Shown: positions 371 through 58,825 of the stretch, in pieces | Layout: every line of letters starts with the position of its first letter | Position numbering within the stretch: the stretch's first letter is position 1 | DNA from: Balneolaceae bacterium | GTDB taxonomy: Bacteria > Bacteroidota > Rhodothermia > Balneolales > Balneolaceae | Assembly: GCA_020832285.1 (NCBI GenBank) | Contig: JAFIFB010000038.1 | Location: 1 to 64,000, forward strand | Reading direction: 5' to 3' | DNA: 64,000 nucleotides | Made by a program: the position numbers and the translations under genes | The notes under the pieces: generated by a model | The model's database searches: none | Told to the model about the DNA's origin: nothing | The model's input: the letters and a program-made list of their open reading frames with translations, nothing else

Positions 371-1645
371 ATGACCACAGGAGCTTTTTTACCAAGGTAT
401 CATATCAGACAGCACCTTCTGTTGTACTCTAAATATCTGACTTTCCTGATATTGCTTTTGATAATCATCCCTCCCGAAAGCACCGCGTCCACCCGATCGG
501 TACAGGAAACTCCCCTTTCCGAATCTGCCTCTATTTCCCTAATCACCATTCTGCCGGGGGAAGCACCGGAGGAACTGTTCGGACACAGTGCTCTTCGTGT
601 ATACGACCCCGAACAGAATCTCGACCTGCTCTTCAACTACGGCACATTTCAGTTTGATGACTATTTTTTGATGAAATTTATTTATGGAGACCTGAACTAC
701 TTCCTCTCCATCGCGCAAACTCCCCGTGCAGCCGATGTGTACCGTCAACGGAGGCGTCCCATGATTGAGCAGGAGCTGAACTTCACACGACAGCAGCGAC
801 AAGATTTATATCAATTCCTGATGATGAACACACAGGAAGAATACCGCTACTACCAGTACGATTTTCTATTCGACAACTGCTCCACCCGGATTCGTGATGC
901 TCTGCAAAACGTTTTGTTGGATGATCTTCGCTTTGCTTCCCTTCCTGACCCCGGCCTCTCTTTCAGGGAGTTGATTGCGATCTATATTCCTCATCTTCCG
1001 TTTTTGGAATACGGTTTTGATCTGCTCCTCGGAACCCCGGTGGATGAAACCGCAGATCCGTGGGATGTGATGTTTCTCCCCGACTTTTTGATGGAAGCAT
1101 TTGATAAGGCTGAAATCCGAATCAATGGGGAGTGGCAGCCGCTGGTTTCTGCCACAAAAACGATTCTTGAAATTTCCGGGTATGAGACGGTAGAAAATGC
1201 AATTTGGCCCTGGCCCTCACTCCTGTTCTGGACGCTGTTTTTCTTCGGCAGTATGCTCACATTCCGTGAGTTTCGTTCAGGTAAGCGGTATCTCTCCCAT
1301 CGCTGGTTCGATATTCCTCTGTTTCTTTTTGCAGGAGTTATCGGCCTGCTTATTGCATTTCTGTGGTTTATCTCCCTTCACCAGGTAACCGCCTCCAACT
1401 GGAATCTTGCATGGGCCTGGCCATTACACCTTGTACTTGCAGGACTTTTGTTCCGACGGGACATGGCTTCTCGTTGGCTAAGCTATTATCTGTACGCGTT
1501 GACCGCTGCATGTTTACTATTCCTGGGTGCCTGGCTTATGATTCCACAAGCCCTTCACCCTGCGGTTATTCCGTTATTGTTGCTCATAACTGTGCGAAGT
1601 GGTTCTCTTGCCCGATTTGCGAATCCGGTGGATATCCCCGAATAA
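371..1645 (+). CDS. Lnb-like lipoprotein N-acyltransferase (DUF4105 domain plus five TM helices)
   Basis: A 424-aa inner-membrane protein. Residues about 21-35 form a signal anchor, about 52-230 a DUF4105/Lnb N-terminal periplasmic domain, and about 283-410 hold five hydrophobic helices, the arrangement of the Bacteroidota Lnb family. The likely catalytic pair is His72 in a FGHSALRV motif and Cys170 in a DNCSTRIRD motif. Characterised Lnb proteins N-acylate the amino-terminal Cys of lipoproteins; this role is inferred from family membership. Many predicted lipoproteins in this window would be substrates. It stands alone, with about 390 bp of empty sequence downstream. The ATG at 371 is the first giving a full signal anchor. 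Confidence 0.75.
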   Translation: MTTGAFLPRYHIRQHLLLYSKYLTFLILLLIIIPPESTASTRSVQETPLSESASISLITILPGEAPEELFGHSALRVYDPEQNLDLLFNYGTFQFDDYFLMKFIYGDLNYFLSIAQTPRAADVYRQRRRPMIEQELNFTRQQRQDLYQFLMMNTQEEYRYYQYDFLFDNCSTRIRDALQNVLLDDLRFASLPDPGLSFRELIAIYIPHLPFLEYGFDLLLGTPVDETADPWDVMFLPDFLMEAFDKAEIRINGEWQPLVSATKTILEISGYETVENAIWPWPSLLFWTLFFFGSMLTFREFRSGKRYLSHRWFDIPLFLFAGVIGLLIAFLWFISLHQVTASNWNLAWAWPLHLVLAGLLFRRDMASRWLSYYLYALTAACLLFLGAWLMIPQALHPAVIPLLLLITVRSGSLARFANPVDIPE

Positions 1646-2035
1646 ATAGCTGAATCCATCACTTTCCTAAACGAAATATTAAATGATGCGCTGAATAGCG
1701 ATTTCTTGAGGGACAGATGAGTTTCCCTATATGAAAATCTGCGAATCTTCGCGATAACCACCACTGAACTCTGTGAAAAACTAAAACCGGGAACTCGATT
1801 TATTGCACCAAATAAAAGGCCTCTTTAAAAAAGCAGCTTTCACTATTACATCCTCATTTTCAGGTTATTTTTGTACAGTTTTGATCTGAAGCATTCCCTG
1901 TACAGGCAGTTTATTTAAATAAAATAAATAATTATCATAACGGGCAGTACCTATTCCGGAAATTTAAGGAACACGGTACCCGATAATACCTGAACTGCCT
2001 GTAACCTGCTCAGACAACGAACAAAAATTTAAGAT
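1646..2035. other. intergenic region without a gene
   Basis: No open frame with family resemblance is visible. The stretch at 1950-2010 contains GC-rich inverted segments around a GGTACC that could form a weak structure ahead of the DoxX-like gene, but nothing I can name. Confidence 0.4.
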
Positions 2036-2485
2036 ATGTCTCTATCTGATCTCACTCCATCTGCCATTGACCGCCGTATAGGTTTTGCACTACTCCGCCT
2101 GATGCTTGGTATTAATATGCTTGGACGCAGTATAGTCCGAATTCCCGAACTCCAAAACTTTGCAAACGGCATGGCCGATAACTTTTCAGAAACTTTTCTT
2201 CCTGAAACCTTTGTATTTCTTTATGCTTACATCATTGTATTTACCGAAACGGTTATCGGTGTGATGCTGATCCTGGGATGGAAAACCCGCTGGGGACTTA
2301 CTATAATGGGTTTACTACTTGCAAGCCTTGCTTTCGGAGTAATTTTACAATCGAACTTCGGTACAGCCGCTAACATTATGATTTACGGGATCGGAGTCTA
2401 TCTTCTGCTTTCGAATACCCAACATGATCATTTTGGCATAGACCGGGGCTTTTCATTCTCCGTTGAAGAAAAGGAACATTCTTAA
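2036..2485 (+). CDS. DoxX-like integral membrane protein
   Basis: 149 aa with four hydrophobic segments (about 17-35, 58-80, 85-105 and 112-130). Length, the helix pattern and the 'LRLMLGINMLGRS' start resemble the DoxX/DoxD-like family of small quinone-linked or uncharacterised membrane proteins. No catalytic residues can be assigned. It is monocistronic, and the downstream inverted repeat separates it from the converging glycosyltransferase gene. Confidence 0.65.
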   Translation: MSLSDLTPSAIDRRIGFALLRLMLGINMLGRSIVRIPELQNFANGMADNFSETFLPETFVFLYAYIIVFTETVIGVMLILGWKTRWGLTIMGLLLASLAFGVILQSNFGTAANIMIYGIGVYLLLSNTQHDHFGIDRGFSFSVEEKEHS

Positions 2486-2501
2486 TCATTGCCTTCATAT
2501 C

Positions 2502-2560
2502 TCATCGGATGAGTGCTTAACGCCCATACACTGAATTATCCCAAAATACTCATCCGATGA
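2502..2560. terminator. 13-bp perfect inverted repeat between convergent genes
   Basis: TCATCGGATGAGT at 2502-2514 pairs perfectly with ACTCATCCGATGA at 2548-2560 across a 33-base spacer. It lies between the stop of the DoxX-like gene and the stop of the glycosyltransferase on the other strand, so a bidirectional terminator is plausible. The long loop and absence of a clean T tract make this tentative. Confidence 0.4.
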
Positions 2561-2577
2561 TTATAATAACCTGAAAA

Positions 2578-3807
2578 TCAGTTCAAGAGCTCTTCAATTG
2601 TATCTGCAGCCAAACTGCTGCCGCCGGAAGCGGCCATCTCCCGTGCAATTAGCTCTGCTTTATCTTTCATTTTCAGAGCCTGTTGTACGGCATCGTTCAG
2701 GGTTTTTTTATTTAGGTTTTTGGGCAGTAGTCTAACACCAACTCCGGCAAATTCAACCCGTCTTGCCACCTCAAGCTGATCTCTGCCGAAGGGAATCACC
2801 ACTACCGGAACTCCGTGTGATAATGCCCGCTGGGTTATACCCATGCCGCCATGACAGATCACAACCGCAGCACGCTCCACCAAGGGGTTGTGTGGTATAA
2901 ACCGTTCGATCCGTGTGTTTGGCAGAGCGGTGGCCTCCAGTTCTTCGAGAGCATAAGCCGCGCTGGTTGCCACTACAAAAAATCCTTTTTCCGGCAGAGC
3001 TTGCAATGCTACCTCCACAATTGGACGGTCTTTTTGCAGCTCCGTGGAACAGGTTACAAGCACAATTGGCCGGTCTGTCTCTTCCAGCCATGCAGGTGGC
3101 TCTGCATCCGGTGCCCAGGACCCGGGCCCCACAAAACGAAAATTATCTGGCCATTTCTCTCGAGGATATTCGAGGGCTTTGGTTGTAAAATAGATCAGCC
3201 GCGGCGGGCGTGTAACCATCTCTTCAAGTGAAACAAACGGATCAAGGGCCAATCGAACACGGATTTTGTTGAGTTCGGGTAAAGCAATTTTATTTAACTT
3301 TGAAAAAAGTATTTTACCCACAAGTTTATTGCGAATTCCACCAATTACACCGTTCATACGGGCAAATCCCGGGCCAAATGGTGGAACCTCCGGTGCCGGA
3401 AGAAATGTGAAATATGGCTGAAACACAGCCCATGGCAGGCCTGACGATTCCGCCACAGCCTGCGCTCCCCAGCTATTCGTATCTACCACAAGTATATCTG
3501 CACCGTTCTTTTTTAGGGCTTGCTGCACGTCGTCAACTTCCTGGACAGACCTGTCGCAAAATGTTTTCATGGCCAGTTCCACTGCCTGTATTGGACTGTT
3601 GCCCTTCCAGTCGTCCATTTCGCGAGATTCAACTTTCTGTGCAATCGGTTCGGCACTCATTCCGAGGGAACCCACTCGTTCCACCTCGGAAGCAAGTGTT
3701 CGTACATGGATTTCATGCCCGCGTGTTTGCAGTTCAATAGCTGCACCGAGAACAGGGAACAGATGCCCGCGGGCAGGTGATGTGTAAAAAAGTATGGATG
3801 CCATCAT
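2578..3807 (-). CDS. GT1-family glycosyltransferase (MGT / UDP-glucosyltransferase-like)
   Basis: 409 aa, the usual length of GT-B fold family 1 glycosyltransferases. The N-terminal acceptor half opens 'SILFYTSPARGHLFPVLG', and the C-terminal donor half carries CHGGMGITQRALSHGVP at about 318-334 followed by IPFGRDQ, the nucleotide-sugar signature. It would transfer a sugar to a small lipophilic acceptor such as a macrolide, terpenoid or flavonoid; the acceptor cannot be told. Its ATG overlaps the TGA of the upstream TetR gene (ATGA), with GGAGG five bases before the start inside that gene, so the two are translationally coupled and probably form a regulator-detoxification pair. Confidence 0.85.
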   Translation of the reverse strand: MMASILFYTSPARGHLFPVLGAAIELQTRGHEIHVRTLASEVERVGSLGMSAEPIAQKVESREMDDWKGNSPIQAVELAMKTFCDRSVQEVDDVQQALKKNGADILVVDTNSWGAQAVAESSGLPWAVFQPYFTFLPAPEVPPFGPGFARMNGVIGGIRNKLVGKILFSKLNKIALPELNKIRVRLALDPFVSLEEMVTRPPRLIYFTTKALEYPREKWPDNFRFVGPGSWAPDAEPPAWLEETDRPIVLVTCSTELQKDRPIVEVALQALPEKGFFVVATSAAYALEELEATALPNTRIERFIPHNPLVERAAVVICHGGMGITQRALSHGVPVVVIPFGRDQLEVARRVEFAGVGVRLLPKNLNKKTLNDAVQQALKMKDKAELIAREMAASGGSSLAADTIEELLN

Positions 3808-4397
3808 TTACCTCCATTCAGTCCGTTTAATATTTTTTGCATAACTTCGAGAACTTCATTCGGTTCCAGTCCATAATCACGCCGGAGCAGTTTCCAGGTG
3901 TAAAGGTCTGTAGCCGTAATCGCGGCATGGAAAATTCGCTCTCTTTCCTTGCCATTAATACCGGATAATAGATTCCGGCAGTGCGTTTTCACCCATTTGC
4001 GGTGTACCTCGCGGCCCCTTTCAACAATTTTTCTTATCGGTTCAAAATGTTGCTCCTGGCATATGAAGTTGATCATCATATCGCCATCGCGTTCATAGTG
4101 CTTCACCAGGGCAGACAGTGCGGCCGATAAACCCTCATCCTCCGGGACATCACGGTCTGTGATTATTCGCTTGCCTTCACGGTTTGCAAGGTGCTCAAAC
4201 AGCTCTTCTTTTGAACCAAATCGTCGTATCACAGTTTGAACCGTAACCCCGCTATTGCGGGAAATCTGCTGAAGTGTGACCCGGTCGAAAAGATCACTGG
4301 AAAAAGCTTTTAAGGCTGCATCCAGAATTGCTTCACCCGTTTCTTTTTCAGACTCAGCACGTGCTTTTTTCTGATATGATCTCGTTTTATCCTTCAA
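3804..4397 (-). CDS. TetR/AcrR-family transcriptional regulator
   Basis: 197 aa. The N-terminal helix-turn-helix spans about residues 38-65 ('VTLQQISRNSGVTVQTVIRR' then FGSKEELF), the TetR_N pattern; the remainder is a helical ligand-binding domain. It is the first gene of a two-gene operon with the GT1 glycosyltransferase, overlapping by four bases. A near-palindromic 29-bp site lies 40 bp upstream of the start and is the obvious autoregulatory operator candidate. The ligand is unknown; by analogy it is probably the toxic acceptor of the glycosyltransferase. Confidence 0.85.
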   Translation of the reverse strand: MKDKTRSYQKKARAESEKETGEAILDAALKAFSSDLFDRVTLQQISRNSGVTVQTVIRRFGSKEELFEHLANREGKRIITDRDVPEDEGLSAALSALVKHYERDGDMMINFICQEQHFEPIRKIVERGREVHRKWVKTHCRNLLSGINGKERERIFHAAITATDLYTWKLLRRDYGLEPNEVLEVMQKILNGLNGGK

Positions 4398-7435: not shown

Positions 7436-10400
7436 TTAATCCTCCAATGGGTATAGTTCAAGTAATTCTTCAGGTGAATAAAAACTGCGTTGATCACTGG
7501 TAGCTTCCCGGACTTTCCTGACATGATCCGGGGAAATAGCAGAGGCCTGATTGCCAAATGCATTTCTTATGTATGTCAGCACGGCGGCCATCTCCTCATC
7601 ATCGAGCAGTCCCCGAAAGGGTGTCATTGGCACACTGCCTGGATATTGCCTGCCAAGTACTTCCATCGGCCCGGCCAGCCCATGCAGCGTCAACTTGATC
7701 AGCCGCTCTTCGCTGCCAGTCACCCAACGCGTACCGGCAAGCGGAGGGAAACCGGCCGCAGAGAGTCCCTGACCGTCCCCGCCATGACAGGTTCCGCAAT
7801 AACCGTCCTGGGCATAGATGTGACGCCCCTGCAAATACAACTCCAATTCTTCACCCTCCAGCTCCACATCCACCTCTTCTTCGGGCAGCTCGGCTGGCAG
7901 CTCTCCCACCAGATGAGCCATCGCCGACTGGTAAGTCTCGCTCATCCAGTCATCGATCGGGTAGTTGGCAGCTTCGTTGAGCACCACCATTCCCTCATCG
8001 ACATCCAGCCAGGAGGCTGCGACAATTGCTTCCAGGCGAACCCGCCCGTGCTCGTCGCCGGCTGCGGCTCTCAACAGCTCTGCCTGACTATTTACCTGAT
8101 GGCCGCTGTAGCGAAGCACCCTCACGGCCGCTGCCCTCACCCGGTAATCATCTGATTCAAGCAGCTGCCGAAGCAGATCCTCATCCACCCGGTTCAGCCC
8201 CCAGGTCACCCAAAGAGCTTCCAACAGGTTTTGCTGGTAATTTTTGTCGCTATCATCCAGGTTCTCCACCCAAGCCTTCATCGCATGCAGCACCTCCGTT
8301 GATTCCCGGCCCCGAAGTTCCAGGCGGGTGCGCTCGCGAGTCCGGTATTCCGGCAGCTTCAGATTATCCAGAAGCTGTTCGATACTTGCCCCGTCAATTT
8401 TTGCCGGCTCGACCAGCGGCCGCGAGGGATAGGTGATACGATAAATCCGCCCGTGAGCATGGTCGCGCAGCGGATCGCGTGCGTTATGCTGCATATGACC
8501 GATCAGTACATTGTGCCAGTCCACCAAATATAGTGATCCGTCCGGAGCAAATTCCATGTCAACCGGCCGGAAGTTTGGATCCGTCCCGACAACCAGGTCC
8601 TGCCGGTGCCTGCTGACATATCCCGTACCGTCATTTTCCAGGGTGTGCTGTTTGGTCCCCAAAAACCCAATTGTGTTGCTGATCAGAAAATCACCCTGCA
8701 CCTGATCGGGAAAATGCCGGCTGTAGACAAACTCCAGACCAGAGGTCGGACGCACACGATGCTCATCCTCAATCAGGTTCCGCGATTTTGGGCTGGCTAC
8801 TCCATAGCGGGGTATAATGGTGCCCGGCATCATCCATAACATATCCGGGCCAGACGTCTCTGCAAAGAAGTTCTGCCCCCACCGGTCGAAGGCAATGCCC
8901 CACGGATTCGGTATGGACAGCTGGGCCGTACGCTCCAGATGCCTCCTCTGGGGACTGTAGCGATAGAAACCGCCGTTGGTGGCGCGAACCGGCCCGTAGG
9001 AGGTTTCCATATTTGTATGTAAAAACACCCCCTCGGCCATGTAGATGGCACCTGACGGATCCATCTTATAGGTGCTGTGGGCGTGATGTGTGTCGTGGTC
9101 ATCAAACCCGCTCAGGATGATCTTCCGGGTATCGGCCTGGTCGTTTCCGTTCGTATCTTGAAGCAGCACCAGATTGGGCCCCTGTGATACATAGACTCCT
9201 TCAGGAGCAAAGGCAAAACCCAACGGCAGATGCAGTCCGTCGGCAAAGGTGGTCTGTTTGTCAGCACGCCCGTCACCTGTGGTATCCTCCAGAATCAGAA
9301 GCTTGTCATCCGGGCGTTCATCTCCGGGTTTGTAGTGCGGGTAACTCGGCATGACCGCCACCCAGAGCCGGCCGCGGGTATCAAAGGTAATCTGAACGGG
9401 GTTAGCCAGGTCGTGAAAATCTTCTTCGGAGGCAAACAACTCGATCTTGTAGCCATCGGGCACATGAAGTTGATCCAATGCATCCTGCCCGTACAAGTAC
9501 TCCCGGTTGCCGTGCCTCTCGGGATCAAAATTGGATTCCACCATCGGCAGTTCGATGGTTTCCCGTTCATCGGCTGCGGCCACATCCATCGAATCGCCCA
9601 CGGCAGCCTTCCATATAGCCCGGTCCCGGATATCGGTCATCTGGCGGGTTTTCTCGATTTCGGCCGGGTAGTTATCCGGGCCGAACGGCTCAAAGCGCCG
9701 GCCATAAGCGTGAACACTATTCGGAATCTTGTAATCCTGATGCCACATCCAGTTCTTATCAAGTACAGCCTCACGAATCCGTTCCCGGTGTTCTTCAGCG
9801 TCTGTGCTGGAGGGCCCAAAGATTGCATCGGCCAGCAGCTTTGCAAAACGGGCGTAACCTTCATCGCTGAGCTGCGAACCGTCGATCGTCAGCGGTTCAT
9901 CGCTCTCGCGGTACCACTGGCGTGTTGGGGTAAATACGTCTACAAACCGCACCCCATGGCAGCTGGCCACCTCCCGCATCGCTTCGGTATAGAGTTCCAG
10001 GTTGGCATTTTCTATGGTGCCGTCCGGCAGATCGTACAGGCCAGAGAGATCCTCAAAGGCGATAGGTGAGACAAGAACCAGTTTCGTTTCAGCCTCCTCA
10101 TTGTACTGCTGGTTGAATGAATGCCGGATGAATGCCTCCAACTCCTCCTTAAAAGTTTCCACTCCCCCCTCTCCCCGAAACGATTCGCTATAACCAAAAA
10201 AAGCTATCAGAATATCAGGGTTGAATTTTGAGATCCACTCATCGGGGTAAGGGAAGTGGCCCTCGCTGAATTGACCCCACTGACTTTCAGAGTCGGTAAT
10301 CAAATCGGCGTGAAACTGTTCGGCACCCGGAAAGGTCCAGGGGGTATCACGAGCTGCATGAGACCGGAAACCCGGCGTATCACCCGGAATGCTCTGGTTG

Positions 10401-10621
10401 CGGATCAATAGGGAATGGCCGGGATAGCGAACATGAAGCTCGGTCTCGAAATGACCGAAATACATCATTCTTGAACCCAGGTTATTTCCGATCAGCACAA
10501 TACTGTCATCCGGATTGATTTGTAAGTGTGCGTCTGATGGCGAACATTGCTGAGCTGCTAACGCAAATATAAACGCACAAAAAAGAGCAATTATATTCCT
10601 ACCTATACCGCTTTTATTCAT
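7436..10621 (-). CDS. PVC-type heme-binding protein: SGNH hydrolase + beta-propeller + HEAT + cytochrome c
   Basis: 1061 aa, exported; an N-terminal signal peptide ends near 'AAQQCSPSD', giving a possible lipobox Cys. Domains: a GDSL/SGNH-like hydrolase about 38-275, a PVC-type 'membrane-bound dehydrogenase' beta-propeller about 380-730 ('DGYKIELFASEEDFHDLANP', then repeated D-x-G-R-L-W strands), HEAT-like repeats about 750-890, and a cytochrome c with CGTCH near residue 942 and a possible axial Met in VPMTPF. This family is abundant in Planctomycetes and Verrucomicrobia, where it is thought to pass electrons from sugar oxidation. The gene is visibly more GC-rich than its neighbours, hinting at transfer. 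A sulfatase gene lies 96 bp upstream on the same strand, so they may be co-transcribed. Confidence 0.85.
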   Translation of the reverse strand: MNKSGIGRNIIALFCAFIFALAAQQCSPSDAHLQINPDDSIVLIGNNLGSRMMYFGHFETELHVRYPGHSLLIRNQSIPGDTPGFRSHAARDTPWTFPGAEQFHADLITDSESQWGQFSEGHFPYPDEWISKFNPDILIAFFGYSESFRGEGGVETFKEELEAFIRHSFNQQYNEEAETKLVLVSPIAFEDLSGLYDLPDGTIENANLELYTEAMREVASCHGVRFVDVFTPTRQWYRESDEPLTIDGSQLSDEGYARFAKLLADAIFGPSSTDAEEHRERIREAVLDKNWMWHQDYKIPNSVHAYGRRFEPFGPDNYPAEIEKTRQMTDIRDRAIWKAAVGDSMDVAAADERETIELPMVESNFDPERHGNREYLYGQDALDQLHVPDGYKIELFASEEDFHDLANPVQITFDTRGRLWVAVMPSYPHYKPGDERPDDKLLILEDTTGDGRADKQTTFADGLHLPLGFAFAPEGVYVSQGPNLVLLQDTNGNDQADTRKIILSGFDDHDTHHAHSTYKMDPSGAIYMAEGVFLHTNMETSYGPVRATNGGFYRYSPQRRHLERTAQLSIPNPWGIAFDRWGQNFFAETSGPDMLWMMPGTIIPRYGVASPKSRNLIEDEHRVRPTSGLEFVYSRHFPDQVQGDFLISNTIGFLGTKQHTLENDGTGYVSRHRQDLVVGTDPNFRPVDMEFAPDGSLYLVDWHNVLIGHMQHNARDPLRDHAHGRIYRITYPSRPLVEPAKIDGASIEQLLDNLKLPEYRTRERTRLELRGRESTEVLHAMKAWVENLDDSDKNYQQNLLEALWVTWGLNRVDEDLLRQLLESDDYRVRAAAVRVLRYSGHQVNSQAELLRAAAGDEHGRVRLEAIVAASWLDVDEGMVVLNEAANYPIDDWMSETYQSAMAHLVGELPAELPEEEVDVELEGEELELYLQGRHIYAQDGYCGTCHGGDGQGLSAAGFPPLAGTRWVTGSEERLIKLTLHGLAGPMEVLGRQYPGSVPMTPFRGLLDDEEMAAVLTYIRNAFGNQASAISPDHVRKVREATSDQRSFYSPEELLELYPLED

Positions 10622-10717
10622 AGTTTTTATTTAACTTAAAATAATATTTTGTAAATTACTCAGGTTGTAATCTTGGCCATATTCATCTGCCATGAAATAA
10701 TTGTGATCACTGGAAAT

Positions 10718-12250
10718 TCAGAACCATTCATTAAAAGGCCCGGAAAGGTCAAGCTCATCACCGGTATCATTCTGTAGTTCCAAAAGGCGCTGCATAAGGC
10801 GGCGGATAACCGGCCCTGAAGCCGAATTTTCAGCCAGGTCATGGATTTCGTACGGGTCTTTATCCAAATCATACAAACGAATCCTGGAAATATCCGGATA
10901 CAAGATGAGTTTATAGGGCCATTCCACAACCGCACGTTGATTCTGTAAGTAAGCACCATAAATCGCCGGGTAGTGTCCGGTTTTCTCTCCCCGAATTAAT
11001 GGGATCATTGAATGAAACTGATACATGTCAGGAACCGAACCACCAGCGAGTTCAATCGATGTCGGCACGACATCCTGCAGGTATATAGAAGATTCATTTA
11101 CCTCTCCAGAAGGAATTCCCGGCCCGGTCAGGATAAATGGCACTCGCAAGGAGTGCTCATACATATTCTGTTTACCCAATAACCCGTGCTGCCCAACAGC
11201 GAGACCATGATCGGCTGTAAAAATGATGATGGTGTTCTCGGTTTTTCCGTTTTCATCCAGAGAATCCAGTATGTAACCGATCTGAGTGTCCATGTGCGAG
11301 ATGATTGCATAAAACTCCTGGCGATGTACTCCCATCGCATATTCGGTTCGTGGAAAGGGAGCCAGCCATTCATCGCGAAGATACCCGCTTGATTCAATCA
11401 CTTCCTCAGGTGTTCCCGGCGAATGAGGCATATTCCCATCATCCACCCGGCCGGACCCTATCGGGTTTTTGTATGGATACACCGGTAAGAAATTGGGCGG
11501 AATTTCAAGTCCATCCGGGTTGTAGGATTCGACATATTCACGAGGTGCCTGGCGGGGATCGTGGGGAGCATTAAATGCCAGATACATAAAAAATGGAGTC
11601 TTCCGCCCCGCAGCCTGTTCAATAAACTCTGTAGCATCGTTTTTCAGCACTTCAGACCAATGAGTACCGCTGCTCCAGAACCCTTCAAACTCCGGATCGT
11701 AAGGACTCCAGGGATCTTCCTCATCTTCATGAGGGCGGTTGTAACCTTCCGCTGTTTGATTGGGCATTCCGGGACGAATGTTAACCACATAATCAAACAG
11801 TTCTTGAGGATTCACTCCCGGAACATGCCATTTGCCGGTAAAATAGGTATCGTAACCAGCCTGTTTAAACTGACGGCTCCAGAACAGATCGTTTTCGTGC
11901 CACTCCTGAAAACCGGTGTTACTCAGCTTGCGAGCATCCCAGAGAAATCGGCCGGTATTCAGCATAGTTCTGCTGGGAATACAAACCGCCGGACTCCAGG
12001 ACCCCATATTATATGCACGGGTAAACTTCATCCCTCTTTCTGCAAGAGCATCTATGTTGGGCGTCCGCACCTCACTGTTACCATAGGCTCCCACATCATA
12101 GTAACCCAAATCATCTGCAAAAATGAAAATGATATTCGGAGGTGGCGTTTCTTCACCTTGAGTTGGTTCCGCAGCACTGAAGAGAAACCCGATGAGCACC
12201 ACTCCACACAGAAAAACAGCAATACCGGTATTTTTAAGCAACTTTTTCAT
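10718..12250 (-). CDS. type I sulfatase (formylglycine-dependent)
   Basis: 510 aa with a signal peptide (about 1-27). It has the alkaline-phosphatase-fold sulfatase layout: metal-binding Asp46/Asp47 in 'NIIFIFADDLGYYDVGAYGN', the formylglycine signature C90-IPSR, and a later 'FTADHGLAVGQHG' metal motif near residue 348. It would hydrolyse sulfate esters on an extracellular or periplasmic glycan; the substrate is not deducible. The C90-x-P-S-R motif is intact, in contrast with the broken sulfatase at 30-31 kb. Downstream on the same strand is the SGNH-cytochrome fusion, so desulfation and oxidation may be coupled. Confidence 0.92.
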   Translation of the reverse strand: MKKLLKNTGIAVFLCGVVLIGFLFSAAEPTQGEETPPPNIIFIFADDLGYYDVGAYGNSEVRTPNIDALAERGMKFTRAYNMGSWSPAVCIPSRTMLNTGRFLWDARKLSNTGFQEWHENDLFWSRQFKQAGYDTYFTGKWHVPGVNPQELFDYVVNIRPGMPNQTAEGYNRPHEDEEDPWSPYDPEFEGFWSSGTHWSEVLKNDATEFIEQAAGRKTPFFMYLAFNAPHDPRQAPREYVESYNPDGLEIPPNFLPVYPYKNPIGSGRVDDGNMPHSPGTPEEVIESSGYLRDEWLAPFPRTEYAMGVHRQEFYAIISHMDTQIGYILDSLDENGKTENTIIIFTADHGLAVGQHGLLGKQNMYEHSLRVPFILTGPGIPSGEVNESSIYLQDVVPTSIELAGGSVPDMYQFHSMIPLIRGEKTGHYPAIYGAYLQNQRAVVEWPYKLILYPDISRIRLYDLDKDPYEIHDLAENSASGPVIRRLMQRLLELQNDTGDELDLSGPFNEWF

Positions 12251-12588
12251 GAGGAAAAATATTTTCAGAGTTTATGAAGGATAATAAAAGCATGCCGTTG
12301 TTGATACACAAACTCTTTTCGGAAGCATAGCTTAAAAGTTTACTGCCTCTGAAATAACCTCTCATATTTTAAAAACAGAATATTCGGAGATTAAGGTACT
12401 CTGGAGAAAACTAATTCACCAATCTACAATACTATACAGTTGCATATCTTAATTCCAATTCCAGTAATTTCTGATATTAAACCCGGATTCATCAGTTCAC
12501 GTTTGAGTTTAATTTGATGTATTTTTGTCTTCACGTTTTCAACGTTTTCAATAGAAATCGACAAAAAGATGTTTAAAAATTACTGCCT
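12251..12588. other. divergent promoter region
   Basis: Lies between the minus-strand sulfatase gene and the plus-strand dehydrogenase gene. It is AT-rich, without an ORF of its own, and should hold both promoters; I could not assign boxes with confidence. Confidence 0.35.
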
Positions 12589-13515
12589 ATGTCCCTGCTG
12601 CTTGTAGCCAAACATCGCGATATGGCCCTGTTTCAATCGGCCATACAAAAAATTGATCCTAACCTGGATGTGGAAGTTTGGCCCGCAGTAAAAAACCCTG
12701 AAAGGGTACTATTTGCCGTGGCCTGGCATCATCCCAAAGATGTATTCCGCCAATACCCTAATCTAAGGGCGATCTCTTCATTGGGCGCCGGTGCCAATCA
12801 CCTGATCCGGGATAAGACCATCCCCAAATCCGTTCAGATCGTTCGGGCATCCACTCCGTCACTCGCTGAACAGATGGGAGACTACATCACGATGTCAGTT
12901 CTAAACCTTATCCGGGGCACGGAAATGTATTTCAGGCAGCAGCAAAAAACTGAATGGAAGCGCCATGCTTCATATCCCAAAAAGAGCATTTCTGTTGGTA
13001 TAATGGGTCTCGGTAAGCTGGGAACCCACGCTGCACGGCAACTGATCAGCAACGGCTTTAATGTCTGTGGCTGGGCAAAATCAAAAAAAGAGATTGAGGG
13101 CATGGAAACCTTCGCTGAAAATCAGCTCGGTTCTTTCCTGAACCGAACCAACATCCTGGTCTGCCTTCTCCCCCTTACCGAAGAAACCGAGGGAATTCTG
13201 GACCTGAAGCTTATGAAACAACTCAAACAGCCTGCCTTTCTGATTTGTGCAGGACGCGGAAGCCAACTTGTGGAGGAGGATCTTATTTACGCTCTTGATA
13301 TTGGTCTGATTGAGCACGCGGTTTTGGATGTGTTCAGCGAAGAGCCTCTGCCCGAATCACACCCATTCTGGGGCCGAAAGAAAATTACAATCACACCTCA
13401 CATCGCCTCTATCACCGACCCAGATGAGGTAGCGGTGCTGCTGGTTGAAAATTACAAACGGCTGCTATCCGGCATGGAGCTGCTGCAGGAGGTAGACAGA
13501 AATAAAGGCTACTAA
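12589..13515 (+). CDS. D-2-hydroxyacid dehydrogenase, glyoxylate/hydroxypyruvate reductase A type
   Basis: 308 aa, cytosolic. The Rossmann motif is at about 137-152 ('VGIMGLGKLGTHAARQL', GxGxxG). Catalytic residues fit the family: Arg in CAGRGSQLVEEDL (about 222), Glu in DVFSEEPLPE (about 250) and His in ITPHIAS (about 270). Length and the short N-terminal domain match GhrA, which reduces glyoxylate and hydroxypyruvate to glycolate and glycerate with NADPH. It faces the esterase gene convergently with only 20 bp between stops, and divergently the sulfatase. Confidence 0.85.
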   Translation: MSLLLVAKHRDMALFQSAIQKIDPNLDVEVWPAVKNPERVLFAVAWHHPKDVFRQYPNLRAISSLGAGANHLIRDKTIPKSVQIVRASTPSLAEQMGDYITMSVLNLIRGTEMYFRQQQKTEWKRHASYPKKSISVGIMGLGKLGTHAARQLISNGFNVCGWAKSKKEIEGMETFAENQLGSFLNRTNILVCLLPLTEETEGILDLKLMKQLKQPAFLICAGRGSQLVEEDLIYALDIGLIEHAVLDVFSEEPLPESHPFWGRKKITITPHIASITDPDEVAVLLVENYKRLLSGMELLQEVDRNKGY

Positions 13516-13535
13516 ACTATCCCGGCTTTGAAAAA

Positions 13536-14339
13536 TCACCAGTTTTGATGGAGCATCTCTACCAGATTTTCGGGAGCGCTCCATTGCGGATTGTGGTCCG
13601 AATCGATAATCAGCACCGGCCAGCCGTGCTGCCGGGCACGTTCTGCGTGACTGTAAAAGTTATCCTCTTCTGGGTCGGTACCTGGCTCCACTGCATGGAT
13701 GTAAGTTGCAGGAATCCGGTACGCATCCTCATTTCCGAGTTTTACCGGTTCTGTAAATGCTTTTAAGGGGTGAGGCACATCGTGCGGATAGGGCTGACCA
13801 GCAGGCACCCATCTTGGAATTAAAAAGCCATTCTCCTCCATAGCCTTAAATCGTTCAAAATTTTCTCCCTGGATACTTTCAATACTCTCCCCGTCGTCTG
13901 GAACAAATGCATCAATGTAGATCATTTTTTTAATCCGCTCGGGAATTCGATGTGCTACACCAGAGATCACCATTCCTCCGTAACTGTGGCCAACCAGAAT
14001 AATGTCCTCAAGTTCTTCAAATAAAATGACATTAATCACATCTTCTAAATGTGTGGAGAGATTTACATCATTATGGGCAAGATGGTGACGTTCACCAAGC
14101 CCGGTTAGTGAGGGGCGGTAAACATCATACCCTTTTTGGCGAAGACGATGTTCTACATCACGAAACGCCCAGCTTCCTCCCCATGCTCCGTGAACAATGA
14201 CGAAGGTGGGTTTGGAATCATCTATGAGGTAATCTCCACGGTCGTCAATCAGCTCCGGAAAAATCTGTGCGAATGCCAAACCGGTAAAACAGGAAAGAAT
14301 AACAAGAGTAAATAATAATGATCTTAGCTTTTTTTTCAT
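13536..14339 (-). CDS. exported alpha/beta-hydrolase (EstC/methylesterase-like)
   Basis: 267 aa; residues 1-24 are a signal peptide ending AFA. The oxyanion motif HGAWGG is at 50-55, the nucleophile elbow GHSYGG places Ser119, and a C-terminal His249 in DSDHNPQW completes the triad. The pattern resembles the plant methylesterase/EstC branch of esterases. The substrate is probably a small carboxylic ester; not deducible. It follows the ALDH gene on the same strand after 137 bp, possibly a separate unit. Confidence 0.82.
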   Translation of the reverse strand: MKKKLRSLLFTLVILSCFTGLAFAQIFPELIDDRGDYLIDDSKPTFVIVHGAWGGSWAFRDVEHRLRQKGYDVYRPSLTGLGERHHLAHNDVNLSTHLEDVINVILFEELEDIILVGHSYGGMVISGVAHRIPERIKKMIYIDAFVPDDGESIESIQGENFERFKAMEENGFLIPRWVPAGQPYPHDVPHPLKAFTEPVKLGNEDAYRIPATYIHAVEPGTDPEEDNFYSHAERARQHGWPVLIIDSDHNPQWSAPENLVEMLHQNW

Positions 14340-14476
14340 ATGGTCCGGGTTAGATTAAGGTGATAATTGAATGGTTAACGCATTGGCTCTGAATTCGTTA
14401 TAAACAAATGATAAAATCGGAGCATACCTGAAAATCTGCGATGACTGCTTCAAAATAATGCAGACAAACAAACTTG

Positions 14477-15997
14477 TTACACATCAAACTCAATTCCCTG
14501 TGCCAGCGGCAGCGCATCTCCCCAGTTGATGGTATTTGTCTGCCGGCGCATGTAAGCTTTCCAGGCATCGGATCCGGACTCCCGGCCGCCACCAGTCTCT
14601 TTTTCACCGCCAAATGCTCCGCCGATCTCTGCTCCGCTTGTGCCAATGTTAATATTGGCAATTCCGCAGTCGGAGCCCCGATGACTCAAAAATGTTTCCG
14701 CTTCCCTCATATTCATTGTAAACATGGCAGAACTGAGCCCCTGTTTCACTCCATTATGATACGCAATTGCCTCATCCAATGAGCTGTATTTGATCAGGTA
14801 GAGAATGGGGGCAAAGGTCTCTTCCTGTACAATCTCGTAGCGATTTTCGACTTCGCAGATAGCCGGTTTCACGTAGTGCCCCTCCATATTCTCCAAAACA
14901 TCACCGCCGCAAACCACAACCCCTCCCTCCTTTTCCACCTGCTTGAGGGCAGCCTGCATCGCTTCAACAGCGTCTTCATCTATCAACGGGCCAACGAGAG
15001 TGTTTTCATTCAGCGGATTGCCGATTGTAATGTTATCGTAAATAGAAATCAAACGCTCCTTCACCTTTTCAAATACAGATTCGTGAATAATGATTCTGCG
15101 TGCAGAGGTACAACGCTGCCCTGCGGTACCCACAGCCCCGAATACCACTGCACGAATAGCCATCTCCAGGTCGGCCTCCTTACTGATAATGATCGCATTA
15201 TTACCACCCAGTTCAAGAATTGTTTTACCGAGCCGTGCACCCACCACCTGTGCTACCTGTCTGCCCATCCGGATCGATCCTGTGGCTGAAATTAGAGGAA
15301 TCCGATCATCGGATGCAAGCCACTCGCCTGCATCAGGCCCGCCGGTAATCAACCCGAAAATTCCTTCCGGCAGATTGTTTTCCTTCAGTACTTCGGCGAT
15401 GATATTCTGTACCGCAATGCCACACAAGGGTGTCTTTTCCGATCCTTTCCAGATCACAGTATCACCACAAACGGCGGCAATCATTGCGTTCCAGCTATAG
15501 ACCGCCACGGGAAAATTAAACGCTGAAATTACCCCCACAGGGCCGAGCGGATGCCACTGCTCGTACATGCGGTGCTCCGGACGTTCGGAGTGCATAGTTT
15601 TACCGTACAGCATCCGCGACTGTCCTACGGCATAATCACAGATATCGATCATCTCCTGTACCTCACCCAGCCCTTCCTGGTAGATTTTTCCCATTTCGTA
15701 CGACACCAGCATACCCAGCGGCTCCTTGTATTCACGAAGTTTCAGTCCGATTTGCCGCACGATTTCACCGCGTTTGGGTGCCGGAGTCATTCTCCAAACT
15801 TTGAATGCCTTAAGTGATACTTCCACAACACGGTCAAAATCCTTCCGAGTGGTTGAATAAACATTGGCAATTTCCGATCCATCAACAGGTGTATAGCTTG
15901 TAAGTTGTGCGGCCGCTGAATCCTTAAAAAAATTTTGTCCTGTTGCTGTTCCTGCATTTACTTTTTCTATACCGAGCGTGCTCAAAAAATCTTTCAT
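14477..15997 (-). CDS. ALDH7-type aldehyde dehydrogenase (alpha-aminoadipic semialdehyde dehydrogenase-like)
   Basis: 506 aa, the length of ALDH7. Catalytic Glu is in LELGGNNAI (about 265) and Cys in GTAGQRCTSARR (about 300). The conserved 'EGLGEVQEMIDICDYAVGQS' and 'ISAFNFPVAVYSWNA' segments match ALDH7A1/piperideine-6-carboxylate dehydrogenase, which oxidises L-2-aminoadipate-6-semialdehyde in lysine breakdown with NAD. No lysine-degradation genes are adjacent, so a broader aldehyde-detoxifying role is also possible. It diverges from the TerC gene. Confidence 0.85.
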   Translation of the reverse strand: MKDFLSTLGIEKVNAGTATGQNFFKDSAAAQLTSYTPVDGSEIANVYSTTRKDFDRVVEVSLKAFKVWRMTPAPKRGEIVRQIGLKLREYKEPLGMLVSYEMGKIYQEGLGEVQEMIDICDYAVGQSRMLYGKTMHSERPEHRMYEQWHPLGPVGVISAFNFPVAVYSWNAMIAAVCGDTVIWKGSEKTPLCGIAVQNIIAEVLKENNLPEGIFGLITGGPDAGEWLASDDRIPLISATGSIRMGRQVAQVVGARLGKTILELGGNNAIIISKEADLEMAIRAVVFGAVGTAGQRCTSARRIIIHESVFEKVKERLISIYDNITIGNPLNENTLVGPLIDEDAVEAMQAALKQVEKEGGVVVCGGDVLENMEGHYVKPAICEVENRYEIVQEETFAPILYLIKYSSLDEAIAYHNGVKQGLSSAMFTMNMREAETFLSHRGSDCGIANINIGTSGAEIGGAFGGEKETGGGRESGSDAWKAYMRRQTNTINWGDALPLAQGIEFDV

Positions 15998-16138
15998 GTC
16001 TTGAATCTTATTTGTGAGTATTTTGTGGAATATAGAACGAATCGTGATGAAGGCAAAAGGGGGCGATTTATAAAAAATAACGAACCCATTCCTCGAAAAG
16101 TCCTTTATTTTACCTGAACATAATATAAGCTATTACCT

Positions 16139-17134
16139 GTGGAGCACAGCCTTACCCTTTGGGTTGTTTTTAATATTTTTATCGTATCGATGCTCATTAT
16201 CGATCTGATGGTTTTTAACCGGAAACCACACGAAATCAGCATCCGTGAAAGTCTTGTCTGGACCGCCATCTGGATTGTAATGGCCATCATTTTCGGCATC
16301 GGGCTCTACTATTTTATGAGTCCGGAAGCCTCGCTTGAATATTTTACGGGTTACCTGATCGAAAAATCTCTCAGTGTCGATAATATCTTCGTTTTTCTTT
16401 TGGTTTTCACCTATTTCGGGGTTGAACCAAAATATCAGCACCGGGTACTGTTTTGGGGCATTTTCGGAGCACTGGTCTTCCGCCTGATCTTTATCTTGAT
16501 CGGAGTAGCACTGATCGAACGCTTCCACTGGATAATCTATATTTTTGGTGCTTTTTTGATTTTTACCGGCATTAAACTGGGACTGGAAAAAGACAAGGAG
16601 ATCCGCCCCAACAAAAACCCTGTTTTGCTTCTCGTACGCCGATTCATCCCGATAACAAAAAACTATCACGGACAAAAGTTTTTCATCAAACGCGGTCGGG
16701 GTTATGTTGCCACTCCTATGTTTGTCGTGCTTGTGGTAATTGAGACCACCGACATTGTTTTCGCTCTCGATTCCATACCGGCGATTATGGCCATTACCCG
16801 TGACACATTTATCATCTATAGTGCAAACGCATTTGCCATTCTCGGCCTGCGCGCTCTCTACTTTGCTCTGTCCGGGGTGATGCGGCTCTTCCACTATCTG
16901 CACTACGGGCTGGCATTTATTCTTGTTTTTATTGGTATTAAAATGTTACTCGAGGGAGTGTACCAGATCCCCACACATGTTACGCTCGGAATCATCATTT
17001 CTACATTGACCATCTCGGTCCTTCTGTCGATCTTCTTTCCGAAAGAAACTAAATTAGAACTACCTTCTGTGAATCTGCCGCCAGGCTCTCATGATGATGA
17101 CAAAAAAACAAAGGAAGATAAAATCCAAAACTAA
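16139..17134 (+). CDS. TerC/Alx-family integral membrane protein
   Basis: 331 aa with eight to nine hydrophobic helices. The diagnostic segment 'EKSLSVDNIFVFLLVFTYFG' and the later 'VVIETTDIVFALDSIPA' (acidic residues within membrane helices) are TerC hallmarks. Characterised members (Alx, MeeF, YkoY) export manganese or help metallate exported enzymes; a Mn2+ role would be an inference. The chosen GTG is the first in-frame start giving the complete first helix. A small membrane protein follows 23 bp later, probably in the same transcript. I looked for a yybP-ykoY riboswitch in the leader and did not recognise one. Confidence 0.85.
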   Translation: MEHSLTLWVVFNIFIVSMLIIDLMVFNRKPHEISIRESLVWTAIWIVMAIIFGIGLYYFMSPEASLEYFTGYLIEKSLSVDNIFVFLLVFTYFGVEPKYQHRVLFWGIFGALVFRLIFILIGVALIERFHWIIYIFGAFLIFTGIKLGLEKDKEIRPNKNPVLLLVRRFIPITKNYHGQKFFIKRGRGYVATPMFVVLVVIETTDIVFALDSIPAIMAITRDTFIIYSANAFAILGLRALYFALSGVMRLFHYLHYGLAFILVFIGIKMLLEGVYQIPTHVTLGIIISTLTISVLLSIFFPKETKLELPSVNLPPGSHDDDKKTKEDKIQN

Positions 17135-20666: not shown

Positions 20667-20904
20667 TATTATTTCAAATTCTTATTACGATTTACAGGTA
20701 ACTTTTCTCAGGAGAAAAATACATGGCTTGCACCCTGAAAAATTCCTTAACTTTCAGAATGCCTGAATGTTAATACCGTTACCTTTCAATTCGTATAGTT
20801 AGGTTTGTATAGAAACATTAACTCTCAATCATATGATGATAAGGAATTCTGCTAAATCAATTTAGTGGTAACGGCTTTTGAAATAACATATACAAAAATC
20901 TTTA

Positions 20905-23652
20905 ATGCGAATTACATTTATTCTTCCGGTAATTTCCCATGCTTACAGTCAAACCAGAATAGAGCATTTAGAAAAAGAGGGAGTTGAACCCATTATACTT
21001 GGATTTGAAAGAAAGCACTATAAAGGAAAAGCCTGGAAGAAAAAAGTAATAAATCTTGGTTTTGTTGAGCATGGTAATTATTTCAAGAGATTTTTTCCAG
21101 ATGTAAAAGCACTTTTCCCGGTTTGGAAACACTCAAAAACAAGTGATTTTATCTATTGTTTTAATTTAGAAACACTGCTGATTGGTTGGTTTGCAAACAT
21201 ATTTCGCTTTTCAAAAGCTAAACTGATCTATGATGTTGCAGATATTCAACAAATTTTAATGTCGAAATCAGCGACCGGGAAAATTCTTCGTTTTTTTGAA
21301 AAGCTTATCTTAAATAATATATCCGTAGTCGTAGTTACTTCTCCATCGTATGTAACAGGCTATTTTCATCATGTTCAAAAGCTCAAAAACGTAAACTACC
21401 AAATAATTGAGAACAAGCTTCCTGCAAATATTTCAAATCTGGAAAATAACAAACCTTTAAAAACATCAAATCTTTTAAACAAAGATCATTCGGTCATCAA
21501 AATTGGTTACTTTGGCGGAATACGGTGCAACCAATCCCTCGTTTTACTTGACAAAGTACTTGAAAGAGGGCAAGGAAAATTCCGGCTCTATCTGCGCGGC
21601 ATCTTTTCAACTCAGAACATAGATGAAAAGCTGAAAAATAAAATTCTCTCTTCAAAATATGTCGATTATGACGGGCCTTATGTCTACCCAAACGATTTAT
21701 CTGAAATGTATGAGAATATCGATATAAGCTGGGGGGCCTTTTATCACGCTGAAAATAATGTAAAATGGTCTCGTGCAACCAGGTTTTATCAGGCGTGTTA
21801 TTATCGATCTCCTCTGATTGTTCAATATAATACTCAGGATGCCAAATTTGTAAAAAAGAGAAACTTTGGACTGCTACTTGACATAACAGATATCGAAAGT
21901 TCTCTAAAAAAAATTCTTCAAATCAATCGTAATGATATTTCAAATTGGAAACAAAATCTAACTTCCATTCCTCATGAAGAAGTTGTTTATACTAATGAAC
22001 ACAAAAAACTATTTGAGGTCCTGAAAAAAGATATTTCGATCCACAAGAACCCAGATACTGAGAATTTTATAAAAAGAATTGGAAAATACTACCGCACTCT
22101 ATCTTATCTGAAAGGCCAACAGATATTTTTTCAGATCTATTATCGCATAATCAGAAAAAAAAGGCTTATCCGTAAAAACAAAATCCCCTCATCAAATACC
22201 TCTCTCGACTTTTTTCAAGTTGATGAAATTTTTTCTTTTGCCGAATATCAAAATGAAAAAATAATTTTTAGGTTCCTTAATCAGGAAAAAGTCTTTAAAA
22301 AGGATGCAGTAGATTGGAGCGATGAAGATTTCGGCAAGTTGTGGAACTACAATCTGCAGTATGTTTATTATGCAAATCAATCCAGTTTATCTCTTGCTCT
22401 GCGTTCAAAGCTGATTTGCGATCTCTATAGCTGGCTATATGAAGGTAAAATTGCCCCGGAATCTTACCCTGCCACTTTAAGAATCATGAACATTATCAGG
22501 TTTTTGAATTTGAATAGTACCAATATTGAAGATTTCGAAAATATTATCAGGGGCGTTTACTCAGATCTTCACTTCCTTGGAAACAACGTTGAGTATCATC
22601 TGCTCGCCAATCATATCTTTGAAAACGCTTGTGCACTGCTTATGGGTGGTTACTATTTCAATGAAAAGAATTGGATTCAAAAAGCTGAAAAGATATTAAC
22701 CAAAGAGTTGGATGAACAATTTTTAAGTGACGGAGCCCATTTTGAAAGAAGCATGATGTATCACCAGCTGATGCTTTTCCGCCTCCTTGAAGCTATACAA
22801 TATCTTCCGGAATATTCAGAAATCAAAAACAAAATGATTTCGGTATGTGAAAAGATGTTCAGCTGGATGAATCAAATGACGTTTCAAAATGGTACTCCGG
22901 CCCATTTCAATGACTCTACGAACGGAATTGCTCCCCGCAATTCAATACTATCAGAAATTGCAACATCGCTTGGAGTTGATATTCAAAAAAAATTATCGCT
23001 ATCGGAAAGCGGATTCCGGAAATTTGAAAACAAAACTTTTGAATTGATCGCCGATGTGCATGGTATCTCTCCTGAATATCAGCCCGGGCATGCTCATGCC
23101 GACACCCATTCCTTTATTCTTCATGCGAATAACACCCCGATAATTGTAGATCCTTCAATTTCCACTTATAATAAAGGGCAAAAAAGAGATCATGAACGAT
23201 CCACAGTTCTTCACAATACGGTTACTGTTAATGATATGAATACTGCAGAAGTTTGGGAAGGATTCAGGGTCGGGAGAAGGCCCGAAGTAACGATTCTTGA
23301 AGAGAACAACAATTCCGTCACATCCGAGCTGACCTACAAATCAAGCATCGAATTCAGACATAAGAGATGCTTTACACTCAATTCTAACCACCTGAAAATA
23401 ACAGATACAACAAATCAAAAAAACTGTGCAGCCCGATTTCATATTGCACCCGGAATTCAAATCAAAAAAACTTCACCAGGTATTTTTGAATTAAATTCCA
23501 GTGTGCGCATATCCTTCTCAGAAAATCCGGGCGTTGAACTCTTTGAGTATGAGTATAATATTGGGTTTAACCGGAGCAAAATTGCCAGCGGCCTGAAAGT
23601 TCATTTTGACAAAACATTGGAAAGCAATATCATCGCATTAACTGACAAGTAA
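20905..23652 (+). CDS. bifunctional protein: GT4-like glycosyltransferase fused to heparinase II/III-like lyase
   Basis: 915 aa in one uninterrupted frame. Residues about 1-385 resemble GT-B glycosyltransferases ('MRITFILPVISHAYSQTRIE', a Rossmann-like 'KLIYDVADIQ', then 'YFGGIRCNQSL' and a weak donor site). From about 392 a new module starts with 'YLKGQQIFFQIYYRIIRKK', the usual opening of heparinase II/III proteins: an (alpha/alpha) toroid to about 690, then a beta-sheet lyase domain with PGHAHADTHSFILH near 728 and VDPSISTYN. The lyase half belongs to the class found in capsule/exopolysaccharide loci. Both genes of this unit are markedly AT-rich, and a strong terminator closes it. A built-in transferase and lyase suggests a chain-length or editing role in polymer synthesis (inference). 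Confidence 0.78.
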   Translation: MRITFILPVISHAYSQTRIEHLEKEGVEPIILGFERKHYKGKAWKKKVINLGFVEHGNYFKRFFPDVKALFPVWKHSKTSDFIYCFNLETLLIGWFANIFRFSKAKLIYDVADIQQILMSKSATGKILRFFEKLILNNISVVVVTSPSYVTGYFHHVQKLKNVNYQIIENKLPANISNLENNKPLKTSNLLNKDHSVIKIGYFGGIRCNQSLVLLDKVLERGQGKFRLYLRGIFSTQNIDEKLKNKILSSKYVDYDGPYVYPNDLSEMYENIDISWGAFYHAENNVKWSRATRFYQACYYRSPLIVQYNTQDAKFVKKRNFGLLLDITDIESSLKKILQINRNDISNWKQNLTSIPHEEVVYTNEHKKLFEVLKKDISIHKNPDTENFIKRIGKYYRTLSYLKGQQIFFQIYYRIIRKKRLIRKNKIPSSNTSLDFFQVDEIFSFAEYQNEKIIFRFLNQEKVFKKDAVDWSDEDFGKLWNYNLQYVYYANQSSLSLALRSKLICDLYSWLYEGKIAPESYPATLRIMNIIRFLNLNSTNIEDFENIIRGVYSDLHFLGNNVEYHLLANHIFENACALLMGGYYFNEKNWIQKAEKILTKELDEQFLSDGAHFERSMMYHQLMLFRLLEAIQYLPEYSEIKNKMISVCEKMFSWMNQMTFQNGTPAHFNDSTNGIAPRNSILSEIATSLGVDIQKKLSLSESGFRKFENKTFELIADVHGISPEYQPGHAHADTHSFILHANNTPIIVDPSISTYNKGQKRDHERSTVLHNTVTVNDMNTAEVWEGFRVGRRPEVTILEENNNSVTSELTYKSSIEFRHKRCFTLNSNHLKITDTTNQKNCAARFHIAPGIQIKKTSPGIFELNSSVRISFSENPGVELFEYEYNIGFNRSKIASGLKVHFDKTLESNIIALTDK

Positions 23653-24415: not shown

Positions 24416-24456
24416 ATCTCCGGGTACTGCTTATACCAGACCCGGAGACTTTTTCT
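24416..24456 (+). terminator. Rho-independent terminator
   Basis: CTCCGGGT (24418-24425) pairs perfectly with ACCCGGAG (24440-24447) across 14 bases and is followed by ACTTTTTC. It ends the plus-strand GT-heparinase/ParB-like unit and lies 15 bp from the stop of the converging M14 peptidase gene. Confidence 0.85.
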
Positions 24457-58780: not shown

Positions 58781-58825
58781 AGAATGCCGGCTCAGCTCTG
58801 CATCAAAACCTAAATGAGGTATTAA

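Follow-up and report, generated by a model that had tools for sequence, protein, structure and literature searches.

A single open reading frame of the window (the whole 64,000-nucleotide stretch of DNA analysed here) joins a GT4-like glycosyltransferase (GT) to a heparinase II/III-like module (Hep) in one protein of 915 residues, and this frame is a real, unbroken fusion. Its host is a bacterium of the Rhodohalobacter lineage. The two-gene GT-Hep module is widespread and its parts are of known kind, while the joined form, among all the sequences searched, is seen only in the window protein; a module that recurs elsewhere has here undergone a rare fusion. The reading that we favour, although tentatively and at somewhat less than an even chance, is that the fusion acts as a cytosolic bifunctional enzyme of surface-glycan synthesis, whose Hep half would epimerise a glycan-bound uronic residue rather than cut the chain. 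The features on which the argument relies are collected in Table 1.

Table 1. Features of the fusion gene and of its downstream neighbourhood (window coordinates)
Feature	Position	Strand	Basis
GT-B glycosyltransferase half (GT4-like), residues 1-375	20905..22029	+	Homology, AlphaFold2, Foldseek
Linker, residues ~376-387 (~12 residues)	22030..22065	+	Points at which alignments to GT and Hep relatives stop; pLDDT dip
Heparinase II/III-like half, residues 388-915	22066..23649	+	PF16889, PF07940, AlphaFold2, Foldseek, profile against PDB
Asn569-His570, catalytic Asn position and adjacent His	22609..22614	+	Invariant in 24 homologues; aligned to heparinase III NH
Tyr619-His620, catalytic Tyr position	22759..22764	+	Invariant in 24 homologues; aligned to heparinase III YH
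His729-Ala-His731-Ala-Asp733, catalytic/metal His region	23089..23103	+	Both His and the Asp invariant
Asp749, expected metal ligand position	23149..23151	+	Invariant; role by alignment only
Tyr755, beta-domain tyrosine	23167..23169	+	Invariant
His770-Asn771, expected metal ligand position	23212..23217	+	Invariant; role by alignment only
ParB/sulfiredoxin-motif protein, 219 aa	23745..24404	+ (same direction as fusion)	Motif, AlphaFold2, Foldseek
Intrinsic terminator	24417..24456	+	Hairpin 24417-24448, dG -19 kcal/mol, z -4.59, then CTTTTT

The fusion gene (20905-23652, forward strand) starts with ATG, has no internal stop and lies in an open frame of 921 codons. An earlier note had placed a transferase and a heparinase-like module in one frame, and this is borne out by the open frame and by the homology of both halves within it. 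In particular, when the C-termini of stand-alone GT proteins and the N-termini of stand-alone Hep proteins were aligned to the fusion, GT homology ended at about residue 375 and Hep homology began at about residues 386-388 in the same frame, the linker occupying the place of the stop and start codons of two ancestral genes. The AlphaFold2 model, built from a 32-row alignment, has a mean pLDDT of 89.7, with ten-residue blocks at residues 371-400 falling to 60-76, and a pTM of 0.65, at which the mutual placement of the two halves is unreliable. No ATG, GTG or TTG occurs in the Hep frame at residues 369-440 (72 codons across the junction), so two ordinary genes would not be recovered simply by assuming a miscalled stop. 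A frameshift or misread stop, the artefact feared in the earlier note, was thus rejected as the main reading, since the second gene would have no start codon. That a sequencing or assembly error joined two genes is, more generally, very improbable: both a stop and a start would be needed, and more than one error would be required, even though the fusion comes from one draft assembly only and the contigs of a sister species (G256) break inside both the GT gene and the ParB-like gene, leaving the junction without a second confirming sequence. In that species the flanks are 96% identical at the DNA level, the first 28 fusion residues show no change, and the ParB-like gene is preserved at its end. 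The break points are the ends of G256:C271 and C325 (L076, L077); the final 17 bases of G256:C271 differ from the window and may represent strain variation inside the unit.

Structure prediction for both halves with AlphaFold2 and Foldseek, as the earlier note had proposed, returned a GT-B fold at the N-terminus, on which that note had staked its case, and a heparinase-III-like fold at the C-terminus. The GT half is 36-41% identical over its whole length to independent stand-alone GT genes, is modelled as two Rossmann domains (residues 2-352) and matches in Foldseek MshA (E 8.7e-12) as well as BshA, PglA and WaaG, GT4 enzymes of the same GT-B fold. Unlike these enzymes, it falls below the Pfam GT4/GT1 cut-off (PF13579 E=0.03-0.11, 13-15 bits against 29.7) and has Gln296 at the position where GT4 enzymes usually carry the second Glu of the EX7E motif, a position that is Q or E across its own family. 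A search of PDB sequences with the GT profile gave zero matches.

The assignment of the Hep half rests on strong family matches (PF07940, E=9.6e-32, 110.8 bits against a cut-off of 24; PF16889, E=9e-14, 52 bits against 22) and on a model with a helical toroid at about residues 478-688 followed by a beta sandwich at about 704-911. Heparinase III was matched in Foldseek (4mmh, E 5e-20; 5jmd, E 1.3e-19), together with PL33, and was also the top match of the Hep-family profile against the PDB (5jmd, E 5.2e-31). Among 24 homologues, 23 positions are invariant (window residue numbers equal alignment positions plus 382), and the PL12/PL33-type catalytic Asn, Tyr and His and the metal-site residues are all present. 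The catalytic His and Tyr that the earlier note wanted checked are therefore kept. The catalytic residues of PL33 are indeed Asn, Tyr and His, and the same apparatus is found in PL12, PL15, PL17, PL21, PL39 and the epimerase DS-epi1 (PMC11848413). Despite the common fold and the shared Asn and Tyr positions, heparinase III/HepC (PL12) is a stand-alone degradative lyase, and the fusion is far under the HepC equivalog cut-off (NF045572 of NCBIfam, 33.9 bits against 600). The PL33 lyases (BtPL33HA, 8r70), whose fold is alike and whose catalytic Asn, Tyr and His have counterparts in the fusion, are degradative, lack a GT and are weakly similar in sequence (E 0.2 with a single sequence, 2e-4 with a profile). 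In a phylogenetic tree the Hep half groups with eight Balneolaceae proteins (support 100/99), its nearest relatives being cluster members, and its end branch (0.73) is near the median (0.66), thus giving no sign of fast decay. One could also imagine that the Hep half has no catalytic role and only holds the acceptor glycan for the transferase, a thought suggested by its being fused to a transferase and by a fold that binds glycans in its cleft; this is scarcely credible, as a binding-only domain need not keep N569, H570, Y619, H729, H731, D733, D749, Y755 and H770.

In relatives of the same genus the two halves are separate genes on the same strand, often back to back, as the earlier note had anticipated when it described them as distinct members of one cluster elsewhere. 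They overlap by 4 bp in G119, are 5 bp apart in G251 and 187 bp apart in G108, while in G199 and G269 about 1.9 kb and two other genes lie between them. In 15 of 23 distinct GT-family loci a Hep homologue lies no more than about 6 kb from the GT gene and on its strand, and in seven it is directly downstream (overlap to 201 bp), counts in which some contigs end early; such pairs span Balneolaceae, Pelotomaculum, Desulfotruncus and Myxococcota. The closest counterparts of the fusion are the adjacent GT and Hep genes (the latter of the 'alginate lyase family') of Balneolaceae G119, G251 and G108 and of Desulfotruncus, which share its families, its order and its lack of a signal peptide, the Balneolaceae genes being 38-43% identical to it per half; there, however, they are two genes within a cluster, whereas in the window they are one protein outside any cluster. 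Divergence from the G119 pair is alike for both halves (41% and 43% identity), which fits the expectation of joint inheritance. In six genomes of the genus (L067, L069, L070, L071, L072, L075) the GT/Hep polysaccharide cluster adjoins recB/recC-like genes, named by sequence recognition, at what is apparently a common variable site. One of the genes lying between GT and Hep in Rhodohalobacter sulfatireducens (L121 7145-8245; L070 10737-11837) has a partial similarity to helical-toroid enzymes, among them glucuronyl C5-epimerase (PF06662, E 1.1e-5); this weak PF06662 gene of the G199 cluster was rejected as a relative of the Hep half, to which it shows no similarity.

The joined form itself was not met again. 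Whole-protein searches gave no second fusion in the 27 other genomes of the genus (28 including its own) or in phylum samples of 247 and 394 genomes, which overlap and hold one genome per species; among plasmids, 203 records matched and none reached 80% coverage; and none of the 23 distinct GT-family loci is fused. A GT-alignment scan of 84,980 species genomes, which hinges on one short peptide pattern and misses many, yielded 21 loci, and a scan of genome contigs queried with the entire protein gave no confirmed relative. The freely accessible literature that was searched describes no GT-heparinase fusion. A suspected second case in G404, a 924-codon frame, was rejected on account of two stops between GT and Hep; here a different GT and Hep share one frame and are separated by just 27 bases and two stop codons, a layout indicating that such fusions need few mutations.

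The surroundings of the fusion gene are not those of its relatives. It lies outside any polysaccharide gene cluster. Its upstream neighbours are TerC, a metallo-beta-lactamase-fold protein and an ATP-dependent DNA ligase, and on the downstream side there is an M14 peptidase. In G267 a sigma-factor gene set comes after the DNA ligase and no fusion unit is present there, which suggests that the unit is an insertion common to the window genome and G256. The host genome has no close copy (best E 1.7e-4) of the GT4 gene found after Hep in relatives. The host carries polysaccharide export genes on other contigs and three genes of the UDP-sugar dehydrogenase family, one of them in the window, where a UDP-glucose dehydrogenase-family gene is followed by an NAD-dependent epimerase/decarboxylase-type gene (57446-59773); with this pair it can probably make a UDP-uronic acid. 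About 95 bp upstream of the fusion (window 20770-20867) recur in the host and in G256 at 74-78% identity, with one short piece at 93% (L105 4236-4334, G000:C108 31622-31714, G000:C113 31769-31798); in G256 this sequence lies between outer-membrane protein genes, and it is perhaps a small dispersed repeat.

Downstream, the ParB-like protein keeps, together with its homologues, the motif GGxGxHRxxIAKVL.L..IPA. It is modelled with a pLDDT of 92 and has no Pfam match; its top Foldseek matches are all Srx/SbnI/ParB, although they are weak (sulfiredoxin E=0.08, SbnI probability 0.60). The ParB-like fold named in the earlier note thus stands on a short conserved motif and on weak fold matches, which suggest the sulfiredoxin/ParB superfamily. 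The kinases SbnI and SerK are among these weak nearest folds. Homologues (L068, L070, L097, L099, L100, L101, L103, L104) occur in many Balneolaceae polysaccharide clusters without a neighbouring GT-Hep pair, at about 3 kb from Hep in G199 and about 37 kb in G108, and only in the window does the ParB-like gene adjoin GT-Hep. A functional pair of fusion and ParB-like gene was rejected because of this spread, and the proposal of an undescribed two-gene system is not supported. Copies may be in tandem (L099) or number three per contig (G267:C74). The terminator, missed by a pattern scan and recognised by eye and by folding, is real, as is the low GC content of the unit (0.33 for GT, 0.37 for Hep and 0.37 for the ParB-like gene, compared with 0.44 in the window overall); in relatives these genes have a GC of 0.33-0.41, so the AT-richness to which the earlier note drew attention is normal for the family. 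Neither the fusion nor the ParB-like protein matches phage, and a phage origin was rejected.

It is against this background that a neutral origin has to be considered, in which the halves act as the separate proteins did or the fusion is a stranded remnant that left its pathway. The single occurrence of the fusion, its position outside a polysaccharide cluster, the missing partner GT4 and the ease of fusion suggested by G404 would all agree with this reading, which we nevertheless hold to be unlikely, as 915 codons without stop or frameshift, the retention of all invariant residues, a terminator of its own and the preserved flanks and first 28 residues in G256 speak against it.

The compartment in which the protein works is constrained by the fusion. 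GT-B enzymes use cytosolic nucleotide sugars, so a Hep half fused to such an enzyme should be cytosolic too. The fusion has no signal peptide and no membrane segment (best 19-residue hydropathy 1.42), and none of 23 stand-alone relatives has a signal-like N-terminus. By the same hydropathy test, used in place of SignalP, the best 11-residue values of 24 cluster-type sequences reach 1.75 at most, mostly with charges, whereas five secreted-type heparinase-locus genes of the same genome reach 2.5-3.7 without charges and do have a signal-like N-terminus. The other heparinase-type genes of the host lie at L085 (G000:C70) 8070-17034 and L086 (G000:C119) 1552-3990, most of them in one C70 cluster, and these loci are probably degradative and distinct from the fusion. 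Signal-less heparinase-like proteins are, moreover, regular members of O-antigen/capsule clusters: annotated Hep relatives are encoded in Wzx/Wzy clusters that also carry WecB and WecC, and others adjoin WecB-like genes, a two-domain oxidoreductase, GT4, NAD epimerase and lipid-carrier transferases, names that come from sequence recognition in neighbourhoods scanned in part.

Under the favoured epimerase reading, an O-antigen/capsule-type module would have had two of its genes, neighbours on one strand, joined in frame, giving a cytosolic and probably membrane-peripheral protein. Its GT-B half would use a nucleotide donor to extend a lipid-linked glycan by a sugar, and its Hep half would then take the proton from C5 of a uronic-acid residue of that glycan, after which re-protonation (C5-epimerisation, from D- to L-uronic acid) appears more likely than beta-elimination. 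The cytosolic site, the lipid-linked substrate and the preference for an epimerase over a lyase are what we infer and favour. Precedents exist for such a chemistry. DS-epi1 has this fold and makes L-iduronate, and small changes have been proposed to turn a lyase into an epimerase (PMC8006597), while PL12/15/17/21/33 have been grouped with DS-epi1 (PMC11848413). The archaeal Agl32, although of unrelated fold, acts ahead of export on a lipid-linked tetrasaccharide, in which it epimerises GlcA, and DS-epi2 is fused to a sulfotransferase (PMC13308652). As far as the literature allows a comparison, human DS-epi1 and DS-epi2 thus share with the fusion the toroid and beta-sandwich fold and would share C5-epimerisation during glycan synthesis, DS-epi2 being likewise joined to another biosynthetic enzyme, but they differ in working in the Golgi lumen on a polymer and in having a sulfotransferase as partner. 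WecB and WecC beside Hep homologues, and in the window the UDP-glucose dehydrogenase and the NAD-dependent epimerase-family gene, also count for the epimerase as a supply of uronic-acid donor. On the other side, sequence does not separate lyase from epimerase and the catalytic residues match the lyase set exactly; the fused gene lies between a DNA ligase and a carboxypeptidase, with the follow-on GT4 absent; Gln296 replaces the second GT4 Glu; and no intact second fusion points to selection on the joined form.

The main competitor, possible but rather unlikely, is a cytosolic lyase with an editing role, in which the Hep half would cut uronic-acid glycans made with the GT half, either to control chain length or to remove lipid-linked glycans that have stalled or been misassembled. 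Every residue used by PL12/PL33 lyases is kept, and the closest solved structures are lyases. Moreover, P. aeruginosa HepP, encoded in an operon with a two-domain oxidoreductase, is reported to degrade heparin in a plate assay and to affect pellicle and biofilm (PMC5732420), which counts against the epimerase as well. By its description, HepP (zbdP-hepP operon) is a heparinase-like protein of about 550 aa placed, as are many relatives of the fusion, beside a two-domain oxidoreductase, but it is not fused. A lyase is harder to reconcile with a cytosolic placement when relatives belong to Wzx/Wzy clusters that polymerise outside the cytosol: a long polymer of the Wzy type is made there, so a cytosolic trimmer has little substrate, and close coupling to the transferase would destroy the transferase's own product. 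The on-the-spot trimming or length control put forward in the earlier note is accordingly weakened by the cytosolic placement, the signal-less relatives, the Wzx/Wzy clusters and the epimerase precedent.

Heparinase-like genes are common in O-antigen/capsule clusters and are annotated as lyases, an odd fit for a building pathway, and the joining of one to a cytosolic transferase narrows down where these cluster proteins act and what their likely co-substrate or partner is; it also makes the choice between lyase and epimerase testable with a single soluble protein. A wider proposal, which we regard as possible although somewhat doubtful, is that the signal-less heparinase-like proteins of such clusters in many phyla are cytosolic uronyl C5-epimerases acting with a transferase on a lipid-linked glycan. 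If this is true, they would be a bacterial counterpart of dermatan-sulfate epimerase, so far annotated as alginate lyase or heparinase, with the fusion serving as Rosetta-stone evidence.
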